DNA of 22,057 nt from a virus. The notes beneath the pieces were generated by a model. That model saw only the letters and a list, made by a program, of their open reading frames with translations, did not search any database and was not told the DNA's origin. A program made the position numbers and the translations under genes. The stretch's first letter is position 1, and each line of letters opens with the position of its first letter. The stretch covers positions 1 to 22,057 of IMG/VR virus record IMGVR_UViG_3300006030_000124; one strand, 5' to 3'. Shown here one piece after another: positions 5,508 to 19,157 of the stretch.

Positions 5508-6175
5508 TCTGCTTTTTGCTGCTGGCCATCGGCCAGGATCTCAAGCTCCCGGCGGAGGTTCGCGGGGAGGTGGGGAGCTTTGTGACCATCCTGGCGGAAA
5601 CCTCCGGCAAGGTGGTCAAGTTTTACCCATTGGATGCCGGGCTGTCCGTGTTCCCCCCGGCCCTGCTGGCCAACACCAAAGCCACGGTGGTGGTGGCCGC
5701 CCAGCCCGGAAGGTATCGGGTGCTGGCCTACACGGCTGCCGGGGATGCCCCGAGTGATCCGGTGCTCTGCACCGTGGTGATCGGTGGGGCACCTCCCGGC
5801 CCGGCTCCGGTTCCCCCGGCGCCCAATCCCCCGGCACCAATTCCGCCAGGGCCCGATCCATTGGCCATGAGCATCCGCGGGATATTTGGCGGGCTCCAGG
5901 AGGCCAGCAAGGCCCAGATGGCGGCCAGCCTGGCCAAGGTATTCCGGGCGGTGGATCCGGCAACCGTGGCCACCTTGGGGCAACTAGAGGCGGCCCTCCG
6001 GGCCCAAAGCCGCGGGATACCTGCCACGGCCATCCAGCCTATCCGGGAAACCATTGCCGAGCACCTCCGGAGCACCTTGGGGGAAAACCCTGAGCTGGTC
6101 ATGGATGAGGCCCTGAGGGCCAAGGCCCGGGCAGAGCTGGCCCGAGTGGCCACCATCCTGGAGGGCCTGCAATGA
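5504..6175 (+). CDS. Secreted or envelope protein with Pro-rich linker, unknown function
   Basis: Starting at the ATG of the ATGA overlap gives 223 residues. The first residues (MICFLLLAIGQ) look like a short signal or membrane anchor. Residues about 13-95 resemble a small Ig-like beta domain ('VVVAAQPGRYRVLAYTA'). Residues 96-120 form a Pro/Ala/Gly linker, and the remainder is helical and charged. Proteins of this build are familiar from Planctomycetota genomes, which supports the host guess weakly. Its ATGA link to the next gene places it in one operon with the cysteine peptidase. It might assist virion release or entry, which is an inference from position. Confidence 0.5.
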   Translation: MICFLLLAIGQDLKLPAEVRGEVGSFVTILAETSGKVVKFYPLDAGLSVFPPALLANTKATVVVAAQPGRYRVLAYTAAGDAPSDPVLCTVVIGGAPPGPAPVPPAPNPPAPIPPGPDPLAMSIRGIFGGLQEASKAQMAASLAKVFRAVDPATVATLGQLEAALRAQSRGIPATAIQPIRETIAEHLRSTLGENPELVMDEALRAKARAELARVATILEGLQ

Positions 6176-7074
6176 GTGACAACTACCCACAGGGCTGGGT
6201 GAGGGATGATGAGGCCGTGGAGGCCGTACAAGCCACCCTGCCATACCCCGTGGCGGGGGACACCCCAGCCGGCCAGGTGGAGGATATCCCGGACCATGTG
6301 TACCTGTGGGATGTGGCCAGGGCCGTTAATGGCGCCTTGCTGCCACCCAGGAACCAGGGGCAGGTGGGGAGCTGTGTCAGTTTTGGCACAGCCCGGGCCG
6401 TGGAATATTCCATGTGCGCGGAAATTGCGGTTGGGGAGCCGGAAACATTTCTGGACCTTTGCACCGAGGTGATCTACGCCGGGAGCCGGGTGGAGATTGG
6501 CGGGGGCCGGCTCAGGGGTGATGGCAGCGTGGGGGTATGGGCCGCAGACTGGTGCCGAAAATATGGCATTCTGGGCCGGCTTGAATACAAGACCGAAAAG
6601 GCCACCTACGATCTCCGCCAGTACTCCGAGGCCCGATGCAAGAGCTGGGGCTCCACGGGTGTGCCCAATGATCTGGAGCCCTTGGCCAAGGCCCACCCCA
6701 TCCGCCAGACCACCCAGGTGAAAACCTGGGAGGAGGCCAAGCGGATGCTGGCCAGTGGGTACGGGATAGCGGTGTGCTCAGGGCAAGGTTTCAGCATGAA
6801 ACGGTCTGAGCAGGGCGTGGCCAAGCCATCCGGCTCCTGGGCCCATTGCATGTGCCTATGCGGTTACCACATCGAGGGTGGGAAGGAGTTTGGCCGGATT
6901 GACAATTCCTGGGGAGCCAATGCCCACACGGGGCCAGTGGGCTGGGGCAACCCGGGGCCGGAAGGTTTCTGGGCTGAGGCCGCGGTGATCAACAAGATGT
7001 TGAGCGAAAAGGATTCCTGGGCATTCAGCGCGGTGGACGGTTTCCCGGCCAAAAAGCTCCGGTGGCTTATTTGA
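6172..7074 (+). CDS. Papain-like (C1A) cysteine peptidase
   Basis: The 300-residue product carries a papain catalytic layout. Gln62 (oxyanion hole) and Cys68 lie in 'RNQGQVGSC', with the same six-residue spacing as Gln19/Cys25 of papain. His225 lies in 'SWAHCMCLCGYH' and Asn245 in 'DNSWG'. There is no signal peptide, no obvious prodomain and no membrane segment. It starts in an ATGA overlap with the preceding secreted-protein gene. The operon position after tail genes and before a strong terminator is where lysis genes usually sit. It may therefore cleave envelope or cell-surface protein at lysis, or act as a virion-associated protease. No peptidoglycan hydrolase is visible nearby. The peptidase family is well supported; the role is inferred. 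Confidence 0.8.
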   Translation: MSDNYPQGWVRDDEAVEAVQATLPYPVAGDTPAGQVEDIPDHVYLWDVARAVNGALLPPRNQGQVGSCVSFGTARAVEYSMCAEIAVGEPETFLDLCTEVIYAGSRVEIGGGRLRGDGSVGVWAADWCRKYGILGRLEYKTEKATYDLRQYSEARCKSWGSTGVPNDLEPLAKAHPIRQTTQVKTWEEAKRMLASGYGIAVCSGQGFSMKRSEQGVAKPSGSWAHCMCLCGYHIEGGKEFGRIDNSWGANAHTGPVGWGNPGPEGFWAEAAVINKMLSEKDSWAFSAVDGFPAKKLRWLI

Positions 7075-7684: not shown

Positions 7685-7903
7685 TGGCACGACAGAAAGC
7701 GTGGCACGACAGATGGCACGACAAGAAAAAACAGCTAAAAATCCAGCATTTTTCCTATCCTACCGGTCACTTCCAGTCATCCGTAACTACCTACAATAAC
7801 AGCCCAACCAATAATTTTCCCCGGTTTTTTGTGCCATCTATTGCATGGGTGTGCCGATCTATGCCACCATGTGCCAATCAGTTTGGCACGATGGATGGCA
7901 CGG
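7685..7903. other. Putative phage attachment site (attP) with arm-type repeats
   Basis: Three exact copies of TGGCACGACA (7685, 7702, 7714) lie on the left, and TGGCACGA (7884) and TGGCACGG (7896) on the right. Inverted copies of TGGCAC occur at 7831-7836 and 7871-7876, with a variant at 7851. The last two copies on each side are both spaced 12 bp apart. Between them, 7725-7829 is less GC-rich and gene-free. Repeats on both arms of a core next to an integrase gene match the layout of lambda-type attP, where the integrase N-terminal domain binds arm sites. The core crossover sequence cannot be identified without a bacterial attB. An alternative is a repressor operator array for the integrase promoter. 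Confidence 0.6.
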
Positions 7904-9049
7904 ATGCGGAAGAAACACGAGACTAGAAAGGTTCCCCCTGGGGCCCCTGCCCGGGTGCACAGGGGAAAGCACCAGGCCCTCATCCAGGTGGATGGCCGCG
8001 GGGTTTGGTGTGATCTGACAGCCACGGGCCGGGCCCGTGTGGTCAGGCCGGAATGGTACGCCAGCCTCAAGCTGGCCAATGGCCAAACCAAAACAGTCAA
8101 GCTTTGCCGAGACAAGACAGCCGCGGAAATGATGCTGGCCAAGCTACGGACCCGTGAGGACCAAATCCGGGCCGGCTTGGTTTTTCCTGTTTCCGAGTCT
8201 GGGGAAAATTTTTCGGATCTGCTGGAAAGGTTTTGGAAACACCGTGCAAGGAGCAGGTGTACGGCTGTATACCTGAAAAGCGCCCAAGTGAGCTTGAGAA
8301 AAGCCCTTGGCAGTTTGGGGGTGGGCTCGGTGTTGGATATCCGTGGGCTGAGCAAGGCTGCATGGGAGAAATGGGCGGATGAGCCCGTGGGGGGGATGGT
8401 CAAGCACCATCGGAGGGTACAGCTGAAGGTTTTCCTCAAATGGCTCCACCATGAAAACCTGCTGGCCTCAATCCCGGATGTTCCGAAAATAAAAATCACA
8501 TACAAGGAGCTCCGGAGGCCAGCCCGGCGCCATGAGGTGGACCAGCTCCAGAAGGTTGCCCCGTGGCCCCGTGGCATTTTTTATGCCTTGGCCTTTAGCA
8601 CCTTGGCCAGGAGGAATGCCTTGATTGGCTTGAGGCCCGAGGATTTCAACCTTGGGCCAAGCCCATTTGTCATGCTCCGGGCCCACCTAAGCAAGACAGG
8701 CATTGATCAGCAAATACCTTTGCCCCCGCGGCTGGTTCCCCAATTGAAAAAACTGATCAAGGAATGCCGGCCAGGTGGCTGTGTGTTTGATCTCATCAAT
8801 GATGCCAATTTCCACAAGCTACTGGACCATGACCTGGAGCTGGCCGGGATTCCACGGGTAACCACGGAGGGAAAGCTAGTGATCCATTCTTTTCGCCACG
8901 GTGGAGCCACGGAGCTGCTGGAGAAAGGTGTTTCGGTTTTGCTGGTCCAGCGGATGGGCGGTTGGAAAAGTTTGGCCATGCTGTCCAAGCATTACGCCCA
9001 TCTGAGCCCTGTTAGGTCCAGAAAGGAGATTGATTCGGTTTTTGAATAG
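7895..9049 (+). CDS. int: Tyrosine recombinase / phage integrase
   Basis: With the start at 7895 the protein has 384 residues; an upstream frame-open start at 7829 and an ATG at 7904 are alternatives, and none has a good ribosome binding site. It shows an N-terminal arm/DNA-binding segment, a core-binding domain (about 95-190), and a catalytic domain with Arg239 ('LARRNALIGLRPED'), Lys267 ('LSKTG'), His331 and Arg334 ('HSFRHGGAT'), Trp357 in place of the second His (as in many phage integrases), and nucleophile Tyr367 ('KHYAHLS'). All active-site residues are present, so it should be active in site-specific integration and excision. The attP-like repeats overlap its 5' end, as expected if integrase expression is linked to the state of att. 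Confidence 0.9.
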   Translation: MARMRKKHETRKVPPGAPARVHRGKHQALIQVDGRGVWCDLTATGRARVVRPEWYASLKLANGQTKTVKLCRDKTAAEMMLAKLRTREDQIRAGLVFPVSESGENFSDLLERFWKHRARSRCTAVYLKSAQVSLRKALGSLGVGSVLDIRGLSKAAWEKWADEPVGGMVKHHRRVQLKVFLKWLHHENLLASIPDVPKIKITYKELRRPARRHEVDQLQKVAPWPRGIFYALAFSTLARRNALIGLRPEDFNLGPSPFVMLRAHLSKTGIDQQIPLPPRLVPQLKKLIKECRPGGCVFDLINDANFHKLLDHDLELAGIPRVTTEGKLVIHSFRHGGATELLEKGVSVLLVQRMGGWKSLAMLSKHYAHLSPVRSRKEIDSVFE

Positions 9050-9187: not shown

Positions 9188-9400
9188 ATGGAAGGCAGCC
9201 CAAGCCTTCCGGTGTTATACGGCCCTGCTGATGTTTGCCGGCTTGTCGGCATATCGCGGAGAACATTGCACCGGTTGGTATCGGCTGGCAGTTTCCCAGG
9301 TGGATTAAAGGTTGGAGCAAGACGGGTATGGCACCCGGGAGAGCTTGACCACTACCTGAGACAAGCCAGCCAGGTGAAGCTGGCCAAAGCTAGGCGGTAA
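9188..9400 (+). CDS. MerR/AlpA-type small HTH protein, excisionase candidate
   Basis: The 70-residue protein is almost entirely one winged-helix DNA-binding domain of the HTH_17/AlpA type: 'YGPADVCRLVGISRRTLHRL', then a wing and 'VWHPGELDHYL'. Such proteins act as excisionases (directing integrase to excise) or as small transcription regulators. It lies directly after the integrase. An AAAGGAGG at 9167-9174 is 13 bases from the ATG, longer than usual, but no better start exists. No CI-like repressor is visible in the window, so it may also take part in the lysogeny decision. Confidence 0.75.
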   Translation: MEGSPSLPVLYGPADVCRLVGISRRTLHRLVSAGSFPGGLKVGARRVWHPGELDHYLRQASQVKLAKARR

Positions 9401-9878: not shown

Positions 9879-10199
9879 GTGGAAAAAGGAACATTCTCCA
9901 GCCTCACCAGTGAGGCCATGAAAAGCCACGGCATGGCAGCCGCGGCCCAAGCCAGGCCGGACATCCTGGAGCTGGCCCGTGACATTGCCCGGGAACTGTG
10001 CCGGATTTCCGGCTCATGCACCGCAGACGATGTTGGCCAGATCCTTTCCAACTTCCATGGCATCCACTCCATGGGCCCGGCTGCCGGCAGCCTGTTCAAA
10101 CATCCGGACTTTGAGCCGACCGGACAGCTCACCAAGAGCATCCGGAAAAAGAACCACGCGCGGTTGATTTATGTTTGGCGCTTAAGCCAGGAGGGCTGA
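9879..10199 (+). CDS. Early protein with predicted winged-helix-like domain
   Basis: The 106-residue product starts with GTG at 9879, three bases after the previous stop. Residues about 26-100 ('LELARDIARELCRISG' through 'KNHARLIYVWRL') have the pattern of a winged-helix fold: helix, 'TADDVGQIL' helix, 'GPAAGSLFKHPDFEPTG' turn, and a beta wing ending in 'RLIYVWRL'. Similar small proteins occur in phage early regions, sometimes near replication genes. No enzyme motif is visible. Function is unknown; DNA binding is the best guess. Confidence 0.5.
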   Translation: MEKGTFSSLTSEAMKSHGMAAAAQARPDILELARDIARELCRISGSCTADDVGQILSNFHGIHSMGPAAGSLFKHPDFEPTGQLTKSIRKKNHARLIYVWRLSQEG

Positions 10200-10202
10200 T
10201 CC

Positions 10203-10373
10203 ATGCTTTGTTTGACCATTAAGGACGGTGAATGGGTGCAGATCGGTGATGCCAGGTTAAAAATTCTGGAAATCGACAAGGGCCGAATTCGCCTAGGCAT
10301 TGAGGCCCCGCGGTCCACTGAGGTGCTCCGGGAAAAGCTGATGAAAACCATCATCCGGAGGCAAACCAAATGA
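10203..10373 (+). CDS. csrA: Phage-encoded CsrA/RsmA-family RNA-binding regulator
   Basis: This 56-residue gene has the full CsrA pattern. The N-terminus MLCLTIKDGEW aligns with MLxLxRxxGE, followed by 'VQIGD', a strand, and 'GRIRLGIEAPRSTEVLREKL', which matches the family's RLGIxAPxxxxVxRxE block. CsrA dimers bind GGA motifs in mRNA leaders and block or stabilise translation. Arg43 (equivalent to E. coli Arg44, an RNA contact) is kept, but the other RNA-contact position, Arg6, is Ile here. The loop between strands is one residue shorter. It overlaps the next gene by ATGA. It could remodel host carbon or motility control or regulate phage mRNAs. Family assignment is strong; RNA specificity may be altered. 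Confidence 0.85.
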   Translation: MLCLTIKDGEWVQIGDARLKILEIDKGRIRLGIEAPRSTEVLREKLMKTIIRRQTK

Positions 10374-10576
10374 ACCACATGGGCGGAAAGGAAATCCGGA
10401 TCCGCAGGGTGCCACGCCTCGGGCCCAATGCCAACGGGTTTGACTGGGACTGGGTGGCCAGCATCTCACTGGGCCATTTTGCGTGGACGGCCACGGGGTA
10501 CTCCAAAACCAAAGAGGAGGCCATGGAACAGGCTGAGGCATTTATTGCCGAGATCAAGGCGGAGGGCTGGCAATGA
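10370..10576 (+). CDS. Small alpha/beta early protein, unknown
   Basis: The 68-residue product begins in an ATGA overlap with the csrA gene and ends in an ATGA overlap with the next, so the three are translationally coupled. The sequence reads as three or four strands ('EIRIRRVP', 'DWVASISL', 'FAWTATGYS') followed by a helix ('TKEEAMEQAEAFIAEIKAEG'). This is a compact fold often seen in small phage early proteins of unknown function. There is no cysteine, signal peptide or membrane segment. Confidence 0.5.
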   Translation: MNHMGGKEIRIRRVPRLGPNANGFDWDWVASISLGHFAWTATGYSKTKEEAMEQAEAFIAEIKAEGWQ

Positions 10577-11132: not shown

Positions 11133-11489
11133 ATGGAGATGCCTTGGGGGAAATACAAGGGGAAGGACATCAAAGAAATACCTGCCAGCTATTTGGGTTT
11201 TGTTTTGGAGGATTGCGATGGTCTTAAAGATCATTTACGCCAGGAAGTAAAGAACGAAATAAGGCGAAGGTTTTTGATTGGAATGTGTGTTTGCTGTTTT
11301 AGCAAAGCTACGGTTTGCGGCGCATGTGCTCAGAATACGCAAAGCGCCAATCCAACAAAAACAAATTTGCCAAACGACTGGCTCAGAAAAATGTCAAAAA
11401 GATTTCATCCAGATCGTGGTGGTTCAACGGATGCAATGGCAGCCGTTAACGAAGGGGTTTTGATTCTTAAAGAATTGATGGGGAATTGA
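11133..11489 (+). CDS. DUF3820-like / J-domain-like fusion protein
   Basis: The 118-residue product combines three parts. Residues 1-35 ('MPWGKYKGKDIKEIPASYL') match the N-terminal motif of DUF3820. Residues 52-65 hold four or five cysteines ('CVCC' and 'CGAC') that could form a zinc site. Residues 83-115 resemble helices II-III of a DnaJ J-domain, with the HPD tripeptide at 92-94 in 'KRFHPDRGG'. J-domains recruit DnaK-type chaperones; the conserved HPD suggests that host Hsp70 could be engaged, although helix I looks missing. The gene is visibly more AT-rich than its neighbours, hinting at separate acquisition. Start supported by AGGGGG five bases upstream. Confidence 0.6.
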   Translation: MEMPWGKYKGKDIKEIPASYLGFVLEDCDGLKDHLRQEVKNEIRRRFLIGMCVCCFSKATVCGACAQNTQSANPTKTNLPNDWLRKMSKRFHPDRGGSTDAMAAVNEGVLILKELMGN

Positions 11490-15343: not shown

Positions 15344-15913
15344 ATGGGGAAGATGGGGGAACCAGTTAGGCTCACGGAAAGCCAGAAAAAGCTTGCCGAG
15401 GATAATTACAGATTGGCCCTTAAATTTGCCAACAGCAAGAATCCACCCAATGGCATGGATATGGATGAGTGGGTATCTGAATGCTTTTACAACCTAGTTA
15501 AAGCTGCCGCGGGATATGATCCGGCCCGGTCACGGTTTGCCACCTATGCCTGGCGCTCCATGCTGAATGGCTGGTGTGCGGTGTATCGGTTGAAAAAGCA
15601 GATCAAGGCCGGGGGCAGCATGACGCAGGCTGGGGACTCATTCAGCCTGGATGAAATCCGGGACCATCGGCCCCAGGAGCCCACGCCTCTGGAACAAGAG
15701 GAGGCCAGCCAGACCATGGCCGGGGTGGATGGGCTGGTGAGGGCCCTGCCCGCGGATCTCCGGCTGTACATGCGCCAAAGGATCAATGGCCTCAGTTTTG
15801 GGGATATGTCCAAAAAATGGGGCATTAGCCGGCAAGCCCTCCAGCAACGGGCCGGCCATGCCAGGGCGGCCATGCTGGCCATTGCCCGGGCCCGCGGGAT
15901 CAAGCTGGGCTGA
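15344..15913 (+). CDS. Sigma-70-like factor, first of a tandem pair
   Basis: The 189-residue product has a region-2-like block ('DEWVSECFYNLVKAAAGYDPARSRFATYAWRSML' in two parts, residues about 42-75) that corresponds to the core-binding/-10 helix of sigma-70 factors. A region-4-like HTH lies near the C-terminus ('LSFGDMSKKWGISRQALQQR', about 147-170). There is no region 3 or 1.1. It shares a block with the next gene of the form GMDxxEWxSECxYxL...FxTYAxR....GWC, so the two are paralogues. GGAG at 15339-15342 fits a start at the ATG 15353 (ten bases) better than 15344. It likely redirects host RNA polymerase to phage promoters. The AT-rich iteron region is immediately upstream. Confidence 0.75.
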   Translation: MGKMGEPVRLTESQKKLAEDNYRLALKFANSKNPPNGMDMDEWVSECFYNLVKAAAGYDPARSRFATYAWRSMLNGWCAVYRLKKQIKAGGSMTQAGDSFSLDEIRDHRPQEPTPLEQEEASQTMAGVDGLVRALPADLRLYMRQRINGLSFGDMSKKWGISRQALQQRAGHARAAMLAIARARGIKLG

Positions 15914-15953
15914 TCGTGGCACCCCTGTGGCAACCTGTGGCCCGGGGGTGAGG

Positions 15954-16496
15954 ATGAGCACCAGAAAACTGACACCAGAACAGCAAGAGCTAGTCACGGC
16001 CAACATGGCCCTGGCGTTTGACTACGCACGGAAAAACAGCCCTCCGGGTGGCATGGATTTCCAGGAATGGGAATCGGAGTGCCTGTACAAGCTGTGCATT
16101 GCGGCCAGCACCTACAGGCCTGAGCTGGGCTGGGCATTCACCACCTATGCGGTTAGATGCCTATCTACTGGGTGGTGCACGGTCCAGCATCACATGACCA
16201 GGGAAATGCGGGACTACCGGCGGCACAGCCGCATGGGTGACCTGGACATCCTGGTGGTGGATCAGCGCCGGGCGGATACATCCGACGATGTCAAAGCCCA
16301 ATTGAATGCCCTGCTGGCCAGGTTGCCGGAGCGTGAGCGCCTGGTGCTGCAAGGCCGGGCCGGTGGGAAGATTCTCACCGAGATTGGCAAGGAGCTGGGG
16401 ATCACCCGGGAACGGGTGCGGCAGATTCAGGAGCGGGCCCTCACCAGGCTGTGGAGGCATGTGAGGATTGAGGGGCTGGAATATGCGGGGGATTGA
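15954..16496 (+). CDS. Sigma-70-like factor, second of a tandem pair
   Basis: The 180-residue product starts at the ATG at 15954 after GGGGGTGAGG; the frame is open further upstream but overlaps the previous gene. Region 2 is seen at about residues 33-70 ('GMDFQEWESECLYKL', 'FTTYAVRCLSTGWC'). A well-formed region 4 lies near the C-terminus ('LPERERLVLQGRAGGKILTEIG', then 'LGITRERVRQIQERALTRLW'), a textbook sigma-70 HTH. The region 4 is closer to consensus than that of its upstream paralogue. It probably directs RNA polymerase to a phage promoter class. Its stop is one base before the next start codon. Confidence 0.8.
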   Translation: MSTRKLTPEQQELVTANMALAFDYARKNSPPGGMDFQEWESECLYKLCIAASTYRPELGWAFTTYAVRCLSTGWCTVQHHMTREMRDYRRHSRMGDLDILVVDQRRADTSDDVKAQLNALLARLPERERLVLQGRAGGKILTEIGKELGITRERVRQIQERALTRLWRHVRIEGLEYAGD

Positions 16497-17915: not shown

Positions 17916-18018
17916 GGAATGGCTCAGGCGCTCAAGGGCCCTGATCCGCCAGGGAATGGACATCCTGGAATTGGAGATTTTGGACAATGAGGACCGACAG
18001 GAGCAAGGGGGTGGGTGA
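17803..18018 (+). CDS. Small helical protein overlapping the DUF3310 gene
   Basis: A 71-residue frame starts at the ATG at 17803, seven bases after GAGGAG, and runs to a TGA that overlaps the clamp gene's ATG (TGATG). The product is entirely helical ('LDRDRYKEMVRHLSQAVELVG', 'SRALIRQGMDILELEIL'), charged and without cysteine. The good ribosome binding site and coupling to dnaN favour real translation despite the long overlap. Function is unknown. Confidence 0.5.
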   Translation: MTLDRDRYKEMVRHLSQAVELVGQSVKLAETGRLRTAREWLRRSRALIRQGMDILELEILDNEDRQEQGGG

Positions 18019-19157
18019 TGAGGTTGGAGGCAGAGCGGGATAACCTACTGGCCGCGGTGGCCATGGTGTGCGGGGTGGTGCCAAGCAAGCCGGTGAAAGA
18101 GGAGCTGGGATTCCTCCGGCTGAAATGCCCGGGGCTGTTTGATGCCGCGGTGCATGGCACGGATCTGGAAATCCATTTGGAGGCAGGCATTAGCCTGCTC
18201 ATCCTGGAAGGGCCCGGGGAGGTGCTGCTCCCAGCCCACCAGCTCCTGGCTGTTTTGCGTTTATTGCCGGAGGGCCCGGTCCATTTGGAAATGATGGGCT
18301 CCGAGTGCGTAATTAGATCAGGAGAGGTTGAGTACCGGCTGGAAACCGGCAAGACCGAAACCCTGCCGGATATGCCGGTCTGCAAGGATCCGTGGAAGCT
18401 GCTGGTATCTGGGGGCAGACTTCGCCAGGCATTCCGGCGGGTGAGCTACGCGGCCAGCACGGACGCGGCCAGGTTTTCAATGAACGGGGTGCGGCTCCGG
18501 TTTAACCTGCCAAACCTCCAGACCATTGCCACGGACGGGCGCCGGCTGGCTGTGGCTGAGCTGGATCTCAAGCAGGATGATGACTGGGATAATTCCCTCA
18601 GCAACCCGCCCAAGGTGCCATTGAAAATTGACGGGGTGACGGTGCCCCACAAGGCCGTGGATGTGATCGAGCGGGTGGGGCATGAGCGGGCGGTTTTTTC
18701 CTGGGACCGGAACACCATGACGGTGGCTTGGCTGGATGAAACCGGCAAGGCTGTGGTGTCGATGTCCACCCTGCTGATCGAGGGCAAGTACCCGGACATT
18801 GATGCCGTTTGGCCCAAGGGCAAGCCGGCCACCCAATTTGAGCACCAGGCGGATGAGCTGGTGCAGGCCGTGAGGCGGGCCGCGGTGTGCGCGGACCAGG
18901 AGGCCCGGCGCCTGGAAATGAACATCCAGCCCAAGGGCATCACCCTGACAGCCCGCGGGGTTGGCCGGGGGCAAGCCGTGGTGCAGGTGCCGGCCCAGGT
19001 GAAAGGTGAATCCATGACCGTGACGGTCAACCCGGCATACCTCATGGATGTTTTACGCCATGCAGGGGAATCGGCTGGGGTTTCCTGTACAGGTGTTGGG
19101 CAGCCCGTCCAGATCGGCGGGCAGGGCTACATGGCCCTTTTGATGCCCCTGACCTGA
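18018..19157 (+). CDS. dnaN: DNA polymerase III beta-subunit homologue (sliding clamp)
   Basis: The 379-residue length and sequence fit the three-domain DnaN clamp. Domain 1 spans about residues 1-115. Domain 2 (about 120-250) contains the recognisable 'AFRRVSYAASTDAARFSMNGVRL' and 'IATDGRRLAVAEL' blocks. Domain 3 ends in 'YMALLMPLT', the position of the family's conserved VMPMR-like C-terminus. Clamps encircle DNA and tether polymerases. A phage-encoded bacterial-type clamp is uncommon and implies either recruitment of the host replicase or a phage polymerase elsewhere in the genome. The start is the ATG at 18018; a GTG at 18015 is also in frame. Confidence 0.88.
   Translation: MRLEAERDNLLAAVAMVCGVVPSKPVKEELGFLRLKCPGLFDAAVHGTDLEIHLEAGISLLILEGPGEVLLPAHQLLAVLRLLPEGPVHLEMMGSECVIRSGEVEYRLETGKTETLPDMPVCKDPWKLLVSGGRLRQAFRRVSYAASTDAARFSMNGVRLRFNLPNLQTIATDGRRLAVAELDLKQDDDWDNSLSNPPKVPLKIDGVTVPHKAVDVIERVGHERAVFSWDRNTMTVAWLDETGKAVVSMSTLLIEGKYPDIDAVWPKGKPATQFEHQADELVQAVRRAAVCADQEARRLEMNIQPKGITLTARGVGRGQAVVQVPAQVKGESMTVTVNPAYLMDVLRHAGESAGVSCTGVGQPVQIGGQGYMALLMPLT

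Follow-up and report, generated by a model that had tools for sequence, protein, structure and literature searches.

A viral DNA stretch of 22,057 nucleotides (hereafter, the window) encodes a small member of the CsrA family in which both halves of the Arg6-Glu46 pair are replaced, a paired loss that, among the sequences compared, is shared with other phages and almost never seen in sampled bacterial copies of CsrA, a well-studied global regulator. Tentatively, we favour the reading that this is a phage-specific, homodimeric RNA regulator with the CsrA fold and a rewired inter-subunit pocket, which would pair mainly with itself. Phage csrA genes are already published, with 30 carriers among 2517 phage genomes (PMC7366521); in the passages covered by our literature searches, neither the joint absence of Arg6 and Glu46 nor any remark about these two positions in a phage CsrA turned up. 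Phage copies without either side of a supposedly indispensable bridge could serve to probe whether mobile CsrAs mix with the host protein or work alongside it, and also which pocket residues set the choice of RNA.

A CsrA-like gene in the window

The csrA-like open reading frame spans positions 10203–10373 (plus strand), starts with ATG and specifies 56 amino acids, with Ile6, Lys7, Arg43 and Lys45. Its product matches the Pfam family CsrA (PF02599; curated cut-off, 27 bits) with 54.9 bits and an E value of 8.2e-15, over profile positions 1–51 of 53, and the PDB matches of its predicted fold ranked 1 to 14 are all CsrA, RsmA or RsmE chains, bearing out an earlier note on this DNA that had proposed a phage CsrA homologue here. 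Against the NCBIfam CsrA equivalog TIGR00202, the protein scores 47.9 bits, below the cut-off of 70.1 bits, which by profile score makes it a CsrA-family member but not an ordinary, canonical CsrA.

An AlphaFold2 model of the monomer, built on a 15-row alignment (pLDDT 81.2, pTM 0.52), leaves strand 1 unassigned, as would be expected if this strand pairs with a partner subunit. The charge of the first 50 residues is unremarkable (1.5), being equalled or exceeded in 36 of 103 others, and we therefore rejected unusual charge as a feature of the protein. The gene is preceded by a likely, Shine-Dalgarno-like ribosome-binding site (AGGAGG, 10189–10194, +), with a purine-rich site upstream of the ATG in all five related loci, and its stop codon overlaps the start of the next gene (ATGA).

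Both partners of the Arg6-Glu46 pair are replaced

Codon 6 (ATT, 10218–10220, +) specifies Ile where Arg is normal, and codon 43 (CGG, 10329–10331, +) specifies an Arg that aligns with Arg44 of E. coli CsrA, both as the earlier note had read them. The remaining principal residues of the pocket (Leu2, Leu4, Lys7, Val42 and Arg44 in E. coli numbering) are kept in the alignment, and the window protein shares with CsrA, RsmA and RsmE the fold, the length and the single-domain architecture. It differs from them in the absence of Arg6 and Glu46, in being one residue shorter before strand 2, and in a basic tail, IIRRxxK, that is common to its two closest viral relatives (L002 and L015, see below).

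A 2019 study of Campylobacter CsrA describes a salt bridge between Arg6 and Glu46 as indispensable, with R6A and E46A each lowering activity; for the E. coli protein, it lists R6A as one of the changes that impair RNA binding most (PMC6692469). The earlier note had proposed that loss of Arg6 could weaken or change RNA recognition. The loss itself is confirmed, but an explanation in terms of this single residue had to be dropped, because the salt-bridge partner is replaced as well: the equivalent of Glu46 in the window protein is Lys45 (AAG, 10335–10337, +), a change absent from that note. With both residues lost, the two-sided change points to a rewiring of the pocket more than to a mere loss of strength.

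The CsrA pocket draws on the opposite subunit (PMC6692469), and strands 1 and 5 come from opposing monomers (PMC7652899). We infer from the former that the Arg6-Glu46 bridge runs between subunits, linking strand 1 of one monomer to the end of strand 5 in its partner. In a dimer of the phage protein, the aliphatic residue 6 would then face Lys or Ser at position 46 across subunits, rewiring the composite pocket, and RNA would be bound through Arg44, Lys7 and the basic tail. As the remaining pocket residues are in place, the simplest interpretation is that the protein would still bind RNA, with its strength or specificity altered.

Conservation among viral relatives

Scans of IMG/VR for relatives of the window protein found four in other viral records that lack Arg6. 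L002 and L015 are 59–61% identical to it and carry Val6; L099 and L196 are about 40% identical and carry Ile6, the former coming from a 42.9-kb record with an 85% identical primase. The Glu46 position is occupied in the four by Lys, Lys, Ser and Ser, and Lys7 and Arg44 (E. coli numbering) are kept in all five related viral loci, the window included. The other 12 IMG/VR relatives from the first scan all have Arg6. Whether Ile6 is fixed in related phages had been raised in the earlier note: an aliphatic residue 6 is found in 5/5 loci, but it is Val, not Ile, in L002 and L015.

The close pairs L099-L196 and L002-L015 show dN/dS ratios of 0.164 (Fisher p 0.0004) and 0.181 (p 0.02), respectively, in tests that used rounded site counts, indicating from codon changes that these csrA-like genes are constrained as proteins. 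The leaders of four of the five related genes (window, L002, L015 and L196) fold no better than shuffled sequences (z 0.01 to 1.37), and we therefore rejected auto-regulation through a leader hairpin. An ACGGA motif occurs at the start codon in the L196/L099 leader.

Gene neighbourhood of the csrA-like gene

The region is opened by a tyrosine integrase gene (7829–9049, +; Pfam Phage_integrase), which is followed by a small, excisionase-like HTH_17 gene (9188–9400, +; Pfam HTH_17, 41.1 bits) and, just upstream of the csrA-like gene, by a gene for a 106-aa protein with no family match in profile searches (9879–10199, +); a 232-aa gene sits at the matching upstream place in L002 and L015. The order integrase, HTH, csrA-like is kept in relatives, and the csrA-like gene lies near integrase and excisionase-like genes in 5/5 loci, a placement that suits an early or lysogeny-linked regulator. 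We thus picture a small homodimeric RNA-binding protein that would act early in infection or in lysogeny, on phage messages, host messages or both. Purifying selection in the relatives, the ribosome-binding site and the conserved synteny together argue for a working protein.

The gene whose start overlaps the csrA-like stop encodes 68 amino acids (10370–10576, +) with a predicted beta-beta-beta-alpha fold (AlphaFold pLDDT 82.5), and is present in all three members of the close clade. Its best PDB matches with Foldseek are double-stranded RNA-binding (dsRBD-like) domains, the matches being weak (E 0.06–0.13).

The window also encodes a tape-measure protein, AAA_24 and DUF669 proteins, a primase-polymerase, a PAPS-reductase-like protein and an HNH gene. 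Several other genes are worth recording. Two overlapping sigma-factor-like genes (15344–15913 and 15786–16496) match Sigma70 regions 2 and 4, and L015 also has two; a DnaN-like sliding clamp (18015–19157) is 60% identical to the clamp of L015; a papain-family cysteine protease domain occurs in a phage gene at 6172–7074, with a close copy in L002; and a small protein (11133–11489) has a C-terminal stretch containing HPD that may resemble a J-domain. As for the host, the only confirmed relatives of the primase in genome_contigs are in two metagenome-assembled genomes that carry planctomycete names (identities of 52% and 40%), and the host is thus probably a planctomycete, an assignment that rests on the binning of those genomes.

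A second phage family with an aliphatic residue 6

Ile6 is also found in the CsrA-like proteins of Parlo (a Serratia phage) and DC1 (a Burkholderia phage), which belong to phrog_8397, a family of CsrA-like regulators from Bcep22-like podophages; we accordingly gave up the idea that only planctomycete phages show this state. For this family we examined 13 chosen loci, of which 11 were picked from lists of 57 and 33 records and two were retrieved by accession number, giving 12 distinct sequences. All 12 have Ile or Leu at position 6 and Lys or Arg at position 7, and none has Glu46; Arg44 is kept in six and missing in the other six, so the wider aliphatic-6 class need not bind GGA RNA. By PHROG profile, the window protein itself is best matched by phrog_9500 (31 bits, versus 17.8 bits for phrog_8397).

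The phrog_8397 gene directly precedes the annotated major capsid gene in records of Lessievirus, Skulduggeryvirus, Lastavirus, Pavtokvirus and Parlovirus; in those of DC1 and Itty13, its neighbour is not labelled as major capsid. Pseudomonas phage F116 has two CsrA homologues (L185/L243), the phrog_8397 copy among structural genes and a canonical copy with Arg6 and Glu46 elsewhere. The window protein resembles those of Lessievirus, Lastavirus, Pavtokvirus and Parlovirus, and the second copy of F116, in the aliphatic residue 6, the Lys/Arg7 and the absence of Glu46. It departs from them in that their genes lie in the structural region, mostly adjoining the major capsid gene, whereas the window gene comes after those for an integrase and an HTH protein, and in that half of that family lacks the Arg44 that the window protein keeps. 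In three Bcep22-like phages (L237, 29889–30071; L238, 29875–30069; L239, 201–395), a gap of about 95–190 nt lies between the CsrA-like gene and its next same-strand neighbour, and may be a regulated leader.

These genes bring in the alternative that the CsrA fold was taken over for contacts between proteins, such as in the virion or with the 68-aa product of the overlapping gene, RNA binding being secondary. Their position next to the major capsid gene fits it, as do the six sequences without Arg44 and the retention of the 68-aa gene in 3/3 members of the close clade; furthermore, JC1 gp47, a phrog_8397 relative, gave one peptide in purified virions, although its authors call this likely and not definitive (PMC9144972). 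For the window protein we nevertheless consider this role improbable, given that its gene is not beside capsid genes and that Arg44 is kept in 5/5 members of its clade.

Distribution of residues 6 and 46

To place these states in context, we tabulated both positions in 122 rows, after dropping rows with fewer than 42 aligned residues. Planctomycete rows came from searches of 2, 59 and 392 genomes, from which we read the matches fetched as loci or regions; viral rows came from the IMG/VR matches and from 15 chosen loci of phage records, taken from lists of 34 and 92 records, along with the phrog_8397 set. Arg6 and Glu46 occur together in 101 rows (77 planctomycete, 24 viral), and an aliphatic residue 6 without Glu46 in 17 (5 of the window clade, 12 of phrog_8397).

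Canonical CsrAs of sampled bacteria and phages thus have both residues in 101 of 105 cases. Three of the other four have Arg6 with a gap at position 46, where inspection by eye places Pro (two coliphage copies) or Asp (one bacterial copy), indicating that, on these alignments, Arg6 can exist without Glu46; the fourth is a degenerate planctomycete copy with Cys6 and Asp46. A profile of four phage proteins, run on 392 planctomycete genomes, found no phage-type host copy beyond the ordinary CsrA range (best, 44.8 bits). Likewise, a DNA pattern for the start Met-Leu-x-aliphatic-x-Ile/Val-Lys matched in 8 planctomycete genomes, with 0/8 CsrA-like; a profile built from the three nearest phage proteins recovered nothing related from genome_contigs; and a PF02599 search of 30 phage records gave three matches, all in sister phages.

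Could the window protein be just an ordinary mobile CsrA, which dimerises and binds GGA hairpins much as host CsrA does, with Ile6 and Lys45 as neutral or compensated drift without functional consequence? It keeps Arg44, Leu4, Val42 and Lys7, the backbone of the protein has been described as the main source of CsrA specificity (PMC6692469), and the plasmid protein RsmQ binds the GGA motif of the host Rsm proteins (PMC9928087). Set against this are the effects of R6A and E46A described above and the retention of both residues in nearly all canonical rows, which implies that these positions are not free to drift. On balance, we regard such an ordinary CsrA as rather unlikely, and retain the rewired homodimer as the preferred reading.

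Number of origins

The trees rest on 45–50 columns and resolve few branches; rows with fewer than 42 aligned residues were left out of both, and the duplicate L249 was removed before the 122-row build. In one build, a branch with a support of 65 separates the five window-clade relatives from the other rows; another build needs two changes. A single clade of all 17 sequences with the paired loss was not rejected (AU p 0.672), its likelihood being above that of the free quick tree, with columns 6 and 46 omitted. The 17 sequences do not, therefore, count as 17 independent cases, and the paired loss may stem from a small number of events; so short an alignment neither establishes a single origin for all 17 nor speaks against one.

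A more far-reaching proposal would be a phage-born CsrA lineage that spans phages of planctomycetes and of proteobacteria and gave up the Arg6-Glu46 bridge in a single replacement, never regaining it. Its dimers would be insulated from host CsrA and serve as a private post-transcriptional regulator, in some members carried in the virion. We offer it as a speculation that is more probably wrong than right by some distance.

Comparison with other mobile CsrAs and mixing with host CsrA

Phage RsmA homologues have been proposed as anti-CRISPR regulators, with proteins of Parlo, DC1, Pavtok, LASTA and GP4 listed (PMC8450108). Those genes and the window gene are alike in being phage-borne csrA genes; however, the published homologues are called highly similar to bacterial RsmA and, in the text available from that source, residue 6 or 46 is not mentioned, nor was "Planctomyc" found in its main text. 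RsmQ of plasmid pQBR103 is likewise a CsrA homologue on a mobile element, and alters host post-transcriptional control; it differs in carrying a host-like VHRE/D motif, with RNA binding and heterodimers shown (PMC9928087).

RsmQ also bears on a further proposal of the earlier note, that the phage protein is a dominant-negative partner whose dimers with host CsrA bind RNA badly, lowering host Csr activity. Two-hybrid assays show that RsmQ heterodimerises with host RsmA and RsmE (PMC9928087), and potential partners are frequent in planctomycetes, with a CsrA match in 24 of 59 sampled genomes and up to 17 per genome. Yet both sides of the presumed inter-subunit bridge are changed, and neither composite pocket of a phage/host heterodimer would have a matching pair (Ile6 would meet Glu46 in one, and Arg6 would meet Lys45 in the other). 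Mixing with host CsrA would accordingly be expected to be weak and self-pairing to be favoured, which counts against the dominant-negative idea. The retention of Arg44, a residue that a dedicated poison subunit could do without, also speaks against it. We consider this proposal very improbable, and prefer a phage protein that mostly pairs with its own kind. Within the host group, one planctomycete genome (G080) has 17 CsrA-family matches, two of them within one open reading frame (L159).
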